NCBI GenBank assembly: GCA_005789565.1
Contig: SXXL01000042.1
Span: 1 to 64,000 of the forward strand
Length of the DNA: 64,000 nucleotides
Direction: 5' to 3'
Source: Bacteroidota bacterium
GTDB taxonomy: Bacteria > Bacteroidota > Bacteroidia > Chitinophagales > Chitinophagaceae
Shown: in pieces, positions 52,768 through 58,114 of the stretch
How the letters are laid out: each line of letters begins with the position of its first letter
Numbering within the stretch: the stretch's first letter is position 1
Position numbers and translations under genes: made by a program
Notes under the pieces: model-generated
Seen by the model: only the letters and a program-made list of their open reading frames with translations
Database searches by the model: none
What the model was told of the DNA's origin: nothing

Positions 52768-54156
52768 ATGAAACAACGACTGGAATCGCTGGATGCCCTC
52801 CGGGGATTCGCCATCCTCACCATGGTGCTCTCAGGCAGCATTGCATTCGGCGATGCGTTGCCCGGTTGGATGTATCATGCACAAGTTCCGCCACCCACCC
52901 ATGTTTTTGATCCCACTCGCCCCGGCATCACGTGGGTCGATCTGGTCTTTCCTTTTTTCCTGTTTAGCATGGGTGCGGCCTTTCCGCTGGTGCTTCACCA
53001 TCCGCTTACTCCACCTACTTTTTTTAACTTACTCCGCACAGCCTTTCGCCGCTACGGATTGCTTCTATTCTTTGCCCTTTTCTCGCAGCACTTCAAAGCC
53101 TGGGTGCTCTCCGATTCGCCAAGCTGGATCCATCAATTTCAATCGATCGTTGCCTTTCTAATTCTTTTCATCGTGCTGTACAGTTGGAAGGAGATCCATT
53201 CTCCGCGTCTTCGTGGCGGACTTCGTCTGATCACCTTGCTCGCAGCCATTGCATGGATGTGCCTGGGTACTTATTCAAATGGAAAGGGCTTTGACCCCTA
53301 TCGCTCCGATATCATCCTCGTGGTGCTGGCCAATATGGCATTTTTCGGAACGATTATTTATGGTTGTACGCAGAATCGGCCTTGGGTTCGCGTGGCCATT
53401 CTTCCGCTGGTGATGGCCATTTTCTTTGCGTCCAAGCAGGAGGGTTGGGCCAAGGATTTGTATTCGATCGATTCGATCGGAATCATTCAGATCGATTGGG
53501 CGTATAAATTTTATTTTCTCAAGTATCTGTTTATCGTGATTCCGGGGATGTTTGCGGGGGAGTGGTTAAAGGGCCTGATGTCCGAAACGGTGCCCTCCCC
53601 GAAATGGTTTGGCCGGGCGGGTGTATTGGGTTTGATGCTCATCGGTTGGAATCTTTACGGGCTGTATACGCGTCAGCTGACCCTCAACCTATTTGGCACG
53701 CTGTTGTTACTTGTAGGGATGTATGCGTCGTTGCGGAAACAACTTTCTATTTCATTGAATAAATTATTTCAGGCGGGTGCGTATTTACTTGTATTGGGTT
53801 TGTGTTTTGAGTCGGTGGAGGGCGGAATCAAAAAAGATCCCTCTAACTACAGTTATTATTTTGTGTGCTCGGGACTGGCGTTTGTTGCTCTGATCGTGTT
53901 GGAGTCGGCATTGAAAAGCCCCACGGGGAAGCGCGTAGTGGGGTTTTTGTCGGTGCAGGGACAAAATCCCATGGTGGCCTATGTAACCGGCAGCTTGCTT
54001 TTGTTACCACTTATGACCTTGAGTGATATTAAGCCCTATTGGGACTCCATGAATCAAACTGCCTGGATGGGATTTGCGAAGGGGGTTCTCTTTACAGGCG
54101 CCGTATCGGTCGTTACTTATTTGTTTGTTCAGCGACGGTGGTTCTGGCGGACTTGA
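52768..54156 (+). CDS. DUF5009 / heparan-alpha-glucosaminide N-acetyltransferase-like membrane protein (NagX-like)
   Basis: QRLESLDALRGFAILTMVLSGSI; GITWVDLVFPFFLFSMGAAFPL. Confidence 0.86.
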   Translation: MKQRLESLDALRGFAILTMVLSGSIAFGDALPGWMYHAQVPPPTHVFDPTRPGITWVDLVFPFFLFSMGAAFPLVLHHPLTPPTFFNLLRTAFRRYGLLLFFALFSQHFKAWVLSDSPSWIHQFQSIVAFLILFIVLYSWKEIHSPRLRGGLRLITLLAAIAWMCLGTYSNGKGFDPYRSDIILVVLANMAFFGTIIYGCTQNRPWVRVAILPLVMAIFFASKQEGWAKDLYSIDSIGIIQIDWAYKFYFLKYLFIVIPGMFAGEWLKGLMSETVPSPKWFGRAGVLGLMLIGWNLYGLYTRQLTLNLFGTLLLLVGMYASLRKQLSISLNKLFQAGAYLLVLGLCFESVEGGIKKDPSNYSYYFVCSGLAFVALIVLESALKSPTGKRVVGFLSVQGQNPMVAYVTGSLLLLPLMTLSDIKPYWDSMNQTAWMGFAKGVLFTGAVSVVTYLFVQRRWFWRT

Positions 54157-54447
54157 TAACTCGATCAATGGTGGTGCAACTTATTCATAGACATGTGAAT
54201 AACGTTTAGTTTCGAGGGGGGTTAAATTTGCGTGGGCATCGGAATTTTATACCCCGGTAGCCATCAAAATTTAGAACAGATTCGAAGCCTGTTGGATAAT
54301 TTATAATAAATTAGAACTTGAATCAAAAAACATACCTATACACCGCGATTAATTATCTAGATTGATGAAAATGAGATCTATAAGTCAGCTGGAAGTAAGG
54401 CTTAAAGACGACAGTGTAATATTAAATTAACAGAATAAAACCTAGTT

Positions 54448-55458
54448 ATGGGAAGAGAAATATCACTTTTTGCGGACTACCACCAAAAGGAAAACTCACT
54501 GACAAACTATTGTGGGTTAATTATGAAAATGCTATATGAAGATAGCCCAAGAAAATTTGAAGAACTTTTAGCAACTCTTTTAAAGACAGATACTAACATA
54601 ATTGTTGGCCCGACTTTTAGCCAACAGATAAAAACCATAAATAGTATTCCAGACTTAGCTATTACACAAAAATCATTTTCCGTTTTTTTTGAAACAAAAA
54701 TTACGGATTGGTTTTATGAGGACCAAATTAACCGACATATTGCAGGGTTCAATCAAACGGCAGACAATAAAGTACTTTTTTTGCTTTCCAATTTTGAAAA
54801 TGATAACTTATTTGAGCAATTTGACAAAGAAATTAAGGAGGCAAAAAAGCATAAAATTATTCTTCAACCTCTGACCTTTGAAGAGTTTGTTGGCTCACTT
54901 GAACAAGTGTGTACTTCGGATTATTTAAGAAATATACTTGATTTGTTTAAGTTATATCTTGACAGAAATGGACATCTTCCAAAGTGGAAATATTTACTTG
55001 ATGTTGTGAGTTGCTCAGGAAGTCTTGCAGAAATCGAACAAAGTGTTTATATGTGCCCTGACAGTGGTGGAGCATACAGTCATAGACGCGCAAAATATTT
55101 TGGACCATATTCGTCTAAAAGAGTGGCTGAGATATTTGAAATAAATGCAATCGTTGTAATTGAGAAGAATTTAGGGGAAGCAAAAATAAAATGGAAGAAT
55201 ACGAAAATAACAGATGAAACCTTGATTGAACAAGCAAAACAAAAATTACAAAATTGGCAATCGCGAGTTGATGAAAATAAATCAGTTCCATTACAGGTAT
55301 TCCTGCTCGATAATAGAGAACAAACAAATTTTGTTAAAAAAACGAGTGGCGGTATGTTGCAATCAAAAAAATATTTTTGGGATATAGCAATTGACTGTAA
55401 AAATTCGCAGGAACTCGCAGAGAAATTAAGAGACAAAAGTTGGAGTGACTATGAATAA
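54448..55458 (+). CDS. Putative PD-(D/E)XK nuclease-like protein in AT-rich island
   Basis: SIPDLAITQKSFSVFFETKITDWFYEDQI gives a PD...ExK pattern; composition much AT-richer than surroundings. Confidence 0.65.
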   Translation: MGREISLFADYHQKENSLTNYCGLIMKMLYEDSPRKFEELLATLLKTDTNIIVGPTFSQQIKTINSIPDLAITQKSFSVFFETKITDWFYEDQINRHIAGFNQTADNKVLFLLSNFENDNLFEQFDKEIKEAKKHKIILQPLTFEEFVGSLEQVCTSDYLRNILDLFKLYLDRNGHLPKWKYLLDVVSCSGSLAEIEQSVYMCPDSGGAYSHRRAKYFGPYSSKRVAEIFEINAIVVIEKNLGEAKIKWKNTKITDETLIEQAKQKLQNWQSRVDENKSVPLQVFLLDNREQTNFVKKTSGGMLQSKKYFWDIAIDCKNSQELAEKLRDKSWSDYE

Positions 55459-55642
55459 CATCCGACAGAAAAAGGCCTGAACAGCTAACAGTATCTACCT
55501 AAAGGGATAGTTCACAGGTCAAGTAAAAAATTTATCTTTCTAAGATTTCCGATTAGTAGACAGTAAAGTACTAGAAATCGTCACTTCGACAAGAGCCAAA
55601 ACGCCATGTCTATCGAACAGTATAACCAAATATGCTTCCTGA

Positions 55643-58114
55643 TCACTCGATCAGCGATAGATTTTTGAGGGATAGTCCGCTGCCGGGCTGACGAAGTACG
55701 ATCCGAATCCGGTCGATCTTCTTCGCTTCTTCCCAAAATTTCCATACAGTAGTAGGATCTTGTCCTTCTGTCTCGGCATAGATCGGTCTTTGATCCTTCA
55801 CCGACCTTAGCTCCACGCCATAGCGCATGGGGATGGTGCCGATCCTGATTTCGCGGTGATAAAGCTCGATCGCAGCGACCAGACTGCCCTCCGGTACAAT
55901 GGATTTTGTCGTGGCTTGAAAGGAGAGTCCGCTAACAGCCATTTCCCGGTCGAGGATCAAACTTTCCCCATCGAATGAATCTTGTTCGGATTTGGCAGTG
56001 ATATCGGTAAAGGTCATCGAATCGATCAGCCGATATCCGGCCCGAGAAGTGATGGGTTTTGATTGACCATAAAATCGTCTAGTCCATTCCCGAATGGGGT
56101 CGTAGGGGAGTTGATCAGGCAGCTCTTTTCTTCCGCTCCAGGCATAATCGAGCGCGAGGATGTAGGCACCGAACTGCTCGATGTTGATCAACATATTTTT
56201 TTCACTGCTTTCAAAATCGGCCCAGGTCGTTTGCAAGACACCTGTATTTTCTTCGATGGCCGCTTTCACAAATCCGTGTACGTTATTGGGCCCGAGCCAG
56301 GGAGAAGCCAGCGGAATATTTTGATTTTGTTTCCAGATGTGCAGACTCTTTTTGTAAACCGACGGATCGGGATTATTCAGATAATGCCAATCGGCTACAT
56401 AGGTACCGGCGGGAATGGCCTCCCGAATCATTTTTGCCCGTGCCGGATTGATACCGTTGCAGGCATCGGGACCTTCTCCCGGGGCCAGTCCCATATCTCC
56501 CCAGATCATCAATTTCTTATTGTTTGATTTGGCATAGCGATCCAAAAAAGATAATTGATTGCGAAAGAGCGATACTTCTTTATCCCTTGGCAGATTAAAT
56601 CCGATCATACCGATCTCATCGAATCCTACATGCAGGGTAGAGGGCTGCAACAGATCGATCGCCTCATTCCAGATCGTTTGAATGGCTTCTTTTGCTGCGG
56701 GCAGATCCGTATTCAGGGTATACGGGTAATCGGGGTTGATGGCCAGCCGCCGGGTGGATTTTGGTTTAAAGAACCACTCCATATGTCCCAAGCTCTGAAT
56801 GAGGGGGATCGGTTCCACTCGGTTTTTTCGAAGCAGCTCAAATTCTTTTTTCAGGTCGAGCAGCGATACTGAAATCGGGTTGTGGATCTCCGGAAAGGCA
56901 CTCCACCGGGCTTGCTCACATTGGATCACCGCCTTGTTCATTTTCAGAGGGAGCAAGATGCGCTCATACATTCGCGTGTGAAACTCGAGCGCGGTGGGAC
57001 CGGTGAACATATGAATCCCTCTCCAATCAGATTTGGGTCGGTCCGAGATACGCATGCAGGGGATCTGTAATCTGCCATTGGCCCACTCCGTTGCCTGCGC
57101 CAGGGTTTGCAGCGCGTATTGAAGGGCTGTATCCGTGCTACTTTCAATGCGGATGCCATCCGTGGAAACCTCGATCCGGTATTCCTGTGTATTCAATGCA
57201 GGATTTTGTAGGACCTGAATTCGAGGGTGGTGCTGATCACTCAATTGCCACTGCAGGGACAGCAGCGATCGGAAAGCCGATTCGACCGAATCCGGGGGAT
57301 TGATTTGGGTGAGGGGGATCGTGTGAAATCCGCCAGTTGTTTTCACTTCGGCAGGAAGAGGCAGAATCGTTTTATTCAGGGCGCTGGGAACCCAGCCATG
57401 TTCGTTTCTAACGGGACGAACATATTTAATACCCGTACGAGTGTCCGATTGCGGAGGCGTGTCGATTGTTTCAACTTGAAATGCACGTTGGAGCCGTTGC
57501 TGTGCGTCCACCTGGATCTTATCCTCGTAAAACTCTATGTATTGATTTCGGGCGCTGTAATCGGTGGGGGCAGGATTGGCATTGTCTGAGATCTTGATCT
57601 TGAAGGGAACTGGGCTGGTAAATACAAAGCTGCCAAAGGGAGTTTGTGCAACGAGTTTGTTACCGATGAATTTTTCGAGTGCTTGGATGGTTCTGCCGGA
57701 TGCATCTTTCCATCGAGCTTCCCGGAAATAAGGTTTCCAGAGGCGGACAAAGGTGATCTCGGCCAGTCCCGTATCGGTTCGATTCCACTTACAATCGATT
57801 CGAGCTTCGATCTTTCTTTCCGTTTGTTTCATCCGAAAAGAACCGAACACGGCGGTGTTTTGGCTTCCCAGGATCAATTCGGTATCGTGGGGGGCGTGGT
57901 TGACCTCATCTTGCTCCCACCAAGTGAAATAATAATGATGTTGTTTTCGATCGGACGTAAAAAAATTGATCTCCGATCCCATGCCCCAAGTTAATTCGGC
58001 CGTTTCCAGAAACAAACCTTTCTTAGGAATGAGCTTGGCCTGCGTTTGTGCCTGTAAGGTTGTACTGAGCAGCCAACCGAATAGGAAGAGCCAAGATCTT
58101 TTACTCAGAAACAT
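55643..58114 (-). CDS. GH20-like glycoside hydrolase (beta-N-acetylhexosaminidase family)
   Basis: TALQYALQTLAQ...ISDRPKSDWRGIHMF; LHVGFDEIGM as GxDE-like catalytic region. Confidence 0.78.
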   Translation of the reverse strand: MFLSKRSWLFLFGWLLSTTLQAQTQAKLIPKKGLFLETAELTWGMGSEINFFTSDRKQHHYYFTWWEQDEVNHAPHDTELILGSQNTAVFGSFRMKQTERKIEARIDCKWNRTDTGLAEITFVRLWKPYFREARWKDASGRTIQALEKFIGNKLVAQTPFGSFVFTSPVPFKIKISDNANPAPTDYSARNQYIEFYEDKIQVDAQQRLQRAFQVETIDTPPQSDTRTGIKYVRPVRNEHGWVPSALNKTILPLPAEVKTTGGFHTIPLTQINPPDSVESAFRSLLSLQWQLSDQHHPRIQVLQNPALNTQEYRIEVSTDGIRIESSTDTALQYALQTLAQATEWANGRLQIPCMRISDRPKSDWRGIHMFTGPTALEFHTRMYERILLPLKMNKAVIQCEQARWSAFPEIHNPISVSLLDLKKEFELLRKNRVEPIPLIQSLGHMEWFFKPKSTRRLAINPDYPYTLNTDLPAAKEAIQTIWNEAIDLLQPSTLHVGFDEIGMIGFNLPRDKEVSLFRNQLSFLDRYAKSNNKKLMIWGDMGLAPGEGPDACNGINPARAKMIREAIPAGTYVADWHYLNNPDPSVYKKSLHIWKQNQNIPLASPWLGPNNVHGFVKAAIEENTGVLQTTWADFESSEKNMLINIEQFGAYILALDYAWSGRKELPDQLPYDPIREWTRRFYGQSKPITSRAGYRLIDSMTFTDITAKSEQDSFDGESLILDREMAVSGLSFQATTKSIVPEGSLVAAIELYHREIRIGTIPMRYGVELRSVKDQRPIYAETEGQDPTTVWKFWEEAKKIDRIRIVLRQPGSGLSLKNLSLIE

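Follow-up and report, generated by a model that had tools for sequence, protein, structure and literature searches.

A predicted PD-(D/E)XK nuclease from a patchily distributed, nameless family, carried as a candidate cassette at a probably decayed integron-like site

The window (the whole 64,000-nucleotide stretch of DNA analysed here) contains an island of 1.49 kb, at positions 54157-55642, with a GC content of 33.7% compared to a mean of 51.7% for the window. Among 626 sliding segments of equal length, none (0/626) is as GC-poor. The island is flanked by two convergent sugar-use genes, for a DUF5009 membrane protein and a GH20-type glycosidase (Table 1), and its sole gene encodes a protein of 336 aa. 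The GC3 of this gene is 0.264, against 0.55-0.67 for five neighbour genes. The first-pass annotation had described an AT-rich segment with one 336-aa protein, and its coordinates, length and quoted motifs were correct. Its description of the gene as a lone one stands in that there is one gene in the segment, but a recombinase relic and leader, the apparent remains of an integron-like capture platform, are also present at 54240-54388. These had been missed, as had a 9-bp direct repeat whose right copy (55645-55653) lies within the 3' end of the GH20 gene. The repeat at the two island ends may have arisen as an insertion duplication or may be part of the GH20 3' end; a sequence similar to the right copy closes the GH20 gene in two genomes of the same genus (G862 and G887).

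Table 1. Positions of the genes, protein motifs and candidate recombination features in and beside the island
Feature	Position	Strand	Basis or remark
DUF5009 membrane protein gene, left flank	52768..54156	+	Pfam PF16401, E 1.6e-87; orthologs adjoin the GH20 gene in congeners
9-bp direct repeat ACTCGATCA, left copy	54159..54167		Read from the sequence; possible insertion trace
Tyrosine-recombinase C-terminus relic	54240..54309	+	71-75% DNA identity to the G082 and G861 recombinase ends
attI-like leader, recombinase end to first cassette	54310..54388	+	Conservation with G082 and G861 extends to CTATAAGT.AG and is lost beyond it
Weak candidate for the R' cassette start (GTCAGCTG)	54384..54391	+	7/8 complementary to 55482-55489
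336-aa nuclease gene	54448..55458	+	Predicted N-terminal PD-(D/E)XK domain, residues 1-~175; uncharacterised C-terminal module, residues ~182-336
Motif E15-N16-x2-T19-N20, helix 1	54490..54507	+	In the 14-homolog alignment E15 and N16 never vary; T19 and N20 are conserved in 90% or more
Predicted catalytic motif D69-x12-E82-T-K84	54652..54699	+	D, E and K invariant in 14 homologs and three PDDEXK_4 relatives
C-terminal module, motif Y201...G219-x-Y221-x2-K224...K297...W332	54991..55455	+	Invariant alignment columns
Weak candidate for R'' of a decayed attC (CAGCTAAC)	55482..55489	+	Pairs with the candidate R' at 54384-54391
GH20-type (family 20 domain 2) glycosidase gene, right flank	55643..58114	-	Pfam PF02838, E 5.7e-9

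The window protein had no significant match in Pfam, NCBIfam, PHROGs or PADLOC, and a search of the PDB gave nothing usable. The best E values against the PADLOC 2023 profiles were 0.0009-0.004, for single members only and differing between members, and weak matches to Cas9 and PDC-S26 were rejected as inconsistent between members. Profile searches found full-length homologs in ∼2-3% of the sampled Bacteroidota genomes (8/298, 7/249 and 9/388, counts that include fragments and partial matches). One homolog on a phage contig (L007) is 46% identical over its full length and was the sole such homolog in repeated scans of viral contigs; others are on Macrococcus plasmids. On one of these plasmids (L008, 14389-16050) the homolog adjoins an IS200/IS605 TnpA-TnpB element, and the family reaches Bacillota. 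Pfam, NCBIfam and PADLOC have no entry for this family, which is patchily distributed and still without a name; we found no paper on it in the open-licence literature.

Residues invariant across 14 members of the family include E15, N16, Q60, D69, E82, K84, Y201, G219, Y221, K224, K297 and W332. The ‘PD...ExK pattern’ pointed out in the first-pass annotation is thus conserved, with D69, E82 and K84 unchanged in homologs down to 21-26% identity. Three bridging relatives (L133-L135) have these three residues in common with the window family and match PDDEXK_4 (PF14281) with scores of 35.0, 28.0 and 34.0, against a gathering score of 22.3; only these relatives pass, the window protein giving no PF14281 match above that threshold. 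A model of the N-terminal domain (pTM 0.70, pLDDT 65.5; the structure models rest on two sequences, those of the window and the phage contig) has the element order alpha-beta-beta-beta-alpha-beta and places E82 and K84 at strand 77-83 and its end. In a Foldseek search with this model the restriction enzyme EcoT38I came first (probability 0.99, E 0.015) and FokI sixth (probability 0.89), in a list that also includes Mus81, ERCC1, Cap4, Cdn1 and BstEII, although no structural match passed an E value of 0.001. With the model of the whole protein (pLDDT 47), no fold match was significant.

Structure prediction and remote homology, by which the PD-(D/E)XK reading was to be checked, did not return a protein lacking a restriction-endonuclease-like fold; that core fold in the modelled N-terminal domain is well supported but not proven. 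The conserved residues, the bridging relatives and the model together make it very probable that the N-terminal half is a PD-(D/E)XK nuclease, with presumed catalytic activity, and E15 may complete the active site. With repair nucleases such as Mus81 and ERCC1 among the fold matches, the protein could be imagined as a cellular DNA repair or housekeeping enzyme of the PD-(D/E)XK type. This is extremely unlikely, since such a distribution disfavours it (only ∼2-3% of the genomes sampled, while none of the seven same-genus genomes covered by the homolog search gave a match) and the composition of the gene is strongly atypical.

The C-terminal half, earlier called an unrecognised region, had no family match in profile searches, and its domain had no match in the libraries searched. 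One genome (G956) carries this module in another setting (L138, 9215-10003): in place of the nuclease, the N-terminal part is a predicted membrane helix and a coiled region, both read by eye from the sequence. The match has an E value of 5.3e-32 when that one protein is searched, and the profile of the whole family gives 2.0e-27 per genome. No second clear fusion came out of a search with the profile of the C-terminal domain. By eye, the fusion gene adjoins apparent mobilisation and integrase genes, in what looks like a mobilisable element. As judged from these sequences, the C-terminal domain is modular, being found here on a membrane-helix protein instead of a nuclease. Because it can sit on such a protein, we infer that it is a sensor or specificity module.

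The insertion site was compared in 42 genomes of the same genus. In seven of these (G234, G862, G865, G870, G872, G873 and G887) the DUF5009 and GH20 genes are convergent and 1-24 bp apart, with no gene between them. A different insert, of 1.9 kb, occupies the site in G082, and in G861 a recombinase and then several other genes lie downstream of the DUF5009 gene, the GH20 side being on another contig. In a further genome (G863, L060), no intact DUF5009 gene was called between the GH20 and SusD genes at the same locus. Given the empty site in seven congeners and the different cargo in two others, the nuclease gene was, almost certainly, acquired horizontally, and the recent acquisition proposed in the first-pass annotation is borne out. 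Homologs fixed at one chromosomal position across the lineage, which would have spoken against the first-pass reading, were not what the congeners presented: with their empty sites and differing inserts, the DUF5009/GH20 site is an insertion hotspot.

The relic and the ∼80-bp leader align with the G861 site at 75% identity (E 2.0e-21) and with the G082 site at 71% identity (E 2.4e-11). The stretch 54268-54309 encodes NLEQIRSLLDNL, compared to NLEQIRSPFDDL at the end of the G082 recombinase, each closed by two stop codons. The match to G861 stops at 54388, and the alignment to G861 and G082 ends there as at an attI/cassette boundary. The tyrosine recombinase in the G082 insert is frameshifted. 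That of G861 is intact and heads a cassette array at the same site as the window island, followed on the same strand by three grouped ORFs (one encodes a DnaJ-domain protein), a long hairpin site and an HNH + HIT pair. The first G861 cassette opens with GTTACCTGC and closes with GCAGGTAAC, which complement each other as the R'/R'' ends of integron cassettes should, and the G082 cassette shows, by eye, GTTATGG and CCATAAC.

The cassette ends of the window gene itself are weaker. The candidate R' and R'' match at 7/8 positions, as do 3% of shuffles for this exact 8-mer and 42% when a shift of up to 6 nt is allowed, so that the pair is not significant with a free register. An attC at the 3' end of the gene was sought and no significant hairpin was found there; an Rfam search gave no match. 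In the window genome (94.5% complete) the only recombinase matches are distant and Xer-like, none being of the close type, and the window cassette is therefore probably immobile now. We think it likely that the DUF5009/GH20 site is a decayed integron-like platform.

The complementary-end test was run on homologs of the nuclease, the window gene included, with shuffled sequence as control. Exact 10-bp R'/R'' pairs bracket the homolog L024 (G521; 49% identity, among the closest relatives), where 0.4% of shuffles do as well, and L020 (G612), where none does (0/500); the other homologs tested, including the window gene, have no exact pair. In G612 (C1), a genome of the same phylum, a Xer/IntI-like recombinase at ∼2129.3-2130.5 kb heads an array of cassettes that runs for ∼55 kb, to ∼2185 kb (L122-L125 and L020). 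Between 2135 and 2185 kb, cassettes follow one another in chains of 11, 5 and 16, which may contain occasional chance links; shuffles give at most 4. The spacing between cassettes is a regular ∼127 bp. A KAP NTPase and a GmrSD-like protein are also encoded in the array region.

Both the G861 and the G612 recombinases lack ∼40 residues relative to 2a3v, in the region of the IntI-specific insertion, and that of G861 scores 199.5, below the NCBI integron-integrase cut-off of 265; for these reasons the platform is called integron-like. The open-licence literature searched yielded no paper on arrays of this kind, integron-like but lacking the IntI insertion, in Bacteroidota. Two genomes of different families, G861 (L103 44-1434) and G521 (L024 5369-6759), share an HNH + HIT gene pair in their cassette arrays; judging by sequence, its presence in both is evidence of cassette exchange, and it is a second candidate defence pair. 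In two genomes the array recombinase has a divergent small gene beside it (L122 268-639 and L107 323-673), whose beginning is cysteine-rich and zinc-ribbon-like; this gene is a possible partner of the recombinase.

Toxin-antitoxin cassettes are known in integron arrays (PMC8618304). A mobile, single, AT-rich gene such as this one could likewise be a selfish or addiction nuclease, either toxin-like or a homing endonuclease, that stabilises its cassette or element. We hold this to be improbable, as there is no antitoxin gene within the 1.5-kb island, and the inserts at the site differ from each other, which fits recombinase-driven capture and not homing.

Genes around the homologs, identified with PADLOC profiles, include those of several defence systems. 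Homologs adjoin BrxA-BrxB-BrxC (L021), BrxL and an E1-E2-JAB protein (L023), a DUF262/HEC-05-like gene (L026), DndD and a DndE/DndH-like protein (L136) and a type IIG enzyme gene (L140), and GmrSD-like and CBASS-like genes are also found in their neighbourhoods. In our judgement, two BREX, one Dnd and one type IIG adjacency in ∼18 readable contexts are far more than would be expected of random accessory genes. The survey of homolog neighbourhoods that had been suggested for this gene thus did reveal defence genes, while not every homolog has such a neighbour: L025 is alone between PhoH-like and SecA-like genes, and some others are at contig ends. By eye, the phage homolog is located between an apparent endolysin and a head-joining/portal pair.

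These adjacencies in several genomes, and the homolog in a phage morphogenesis region, would also suit a nuclease in an accessory or stand-in role, one dependent on BREX, Dnd or R-M partners or one that aids mobile-element competition. However, the partner system is different every time, and several homologs, that of the window among them, have no such system in the flanks read, making a dependent role of this kind unlikely. The explanation we favour as a whole, with moderate confidence and with the anti-phage function still conjectural, is that of a self-contained defence nuclease under C-terminal control, carried as a cassette in a decayed integron-like element. A single acquired nuclease gene would have come to lie between the DUF5009 and GH20 genes as a cassette of an element that has since decayed. 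Its N-terminal PD-(D/E)XK domain would be a metal-dependent nuclease effector, and its C-terminal domain would sense an infection cue, whether a phage product or DNA that is foreign or modified. Recognition of the cue would permit cleavage of the invader DNA. Self-protection would have to come from conditional activation, since no methyltransferase or antitoxin travels with the gene.

The family is compact, and its conserved catalytic and C-terminal residues make it ready for phage challenge. IntegronFinder 2.0 reported a single complete integron for Bacteroidetes proper, that of Salinibacter (PMC9024848); integron-type cassette arrays are indicated here in a phylum where that standard survey met almost none, and would, if active, be a place to seek more single-gene defence systems. 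A broader proposal, which we make only tentatively, is that integron-like capture by Xer/XerA-type recombinases without the IntI-specific insertion is widespread in Bacteroidota and stockpiles single-gene defence cassettes. The window gene would be one of these and would represent a new family of modular nucleases, in which the C-terminal sensor could be transferred to other effectors, for example a membrane-anchored protein.

Among known systems, the N-terminal domain resembles PDDEXK_4 in the catalytic D...ExK and the following QL, common to the three bridging relatives, while the window family is without a PF14281 match and has a different C-terminal domain. The type II restriction endonucleases EcoT38I (7edb) and FokI (1fok) are the best structural matches of the predicted domain, but at 12-13% identity and E values above 0.01, and the window gene has no methyltransferase gene with it. 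GmrSD-like, BREX, Dnd and type IIG systems have a genomic neighbourhood in common with the homologs; they are neighbours only, with no sequence relation to the nuclease found. Sedentary chromosomal integrons (IntI, attI, attC) differ in the IntI-specific insertion that the G861 and G612 recombinases lack, whereas the recombinase at the head of a long array in G612 and the complementary R'/R'' ends specific to each cassette are alike, and the same logic is seen in G861.
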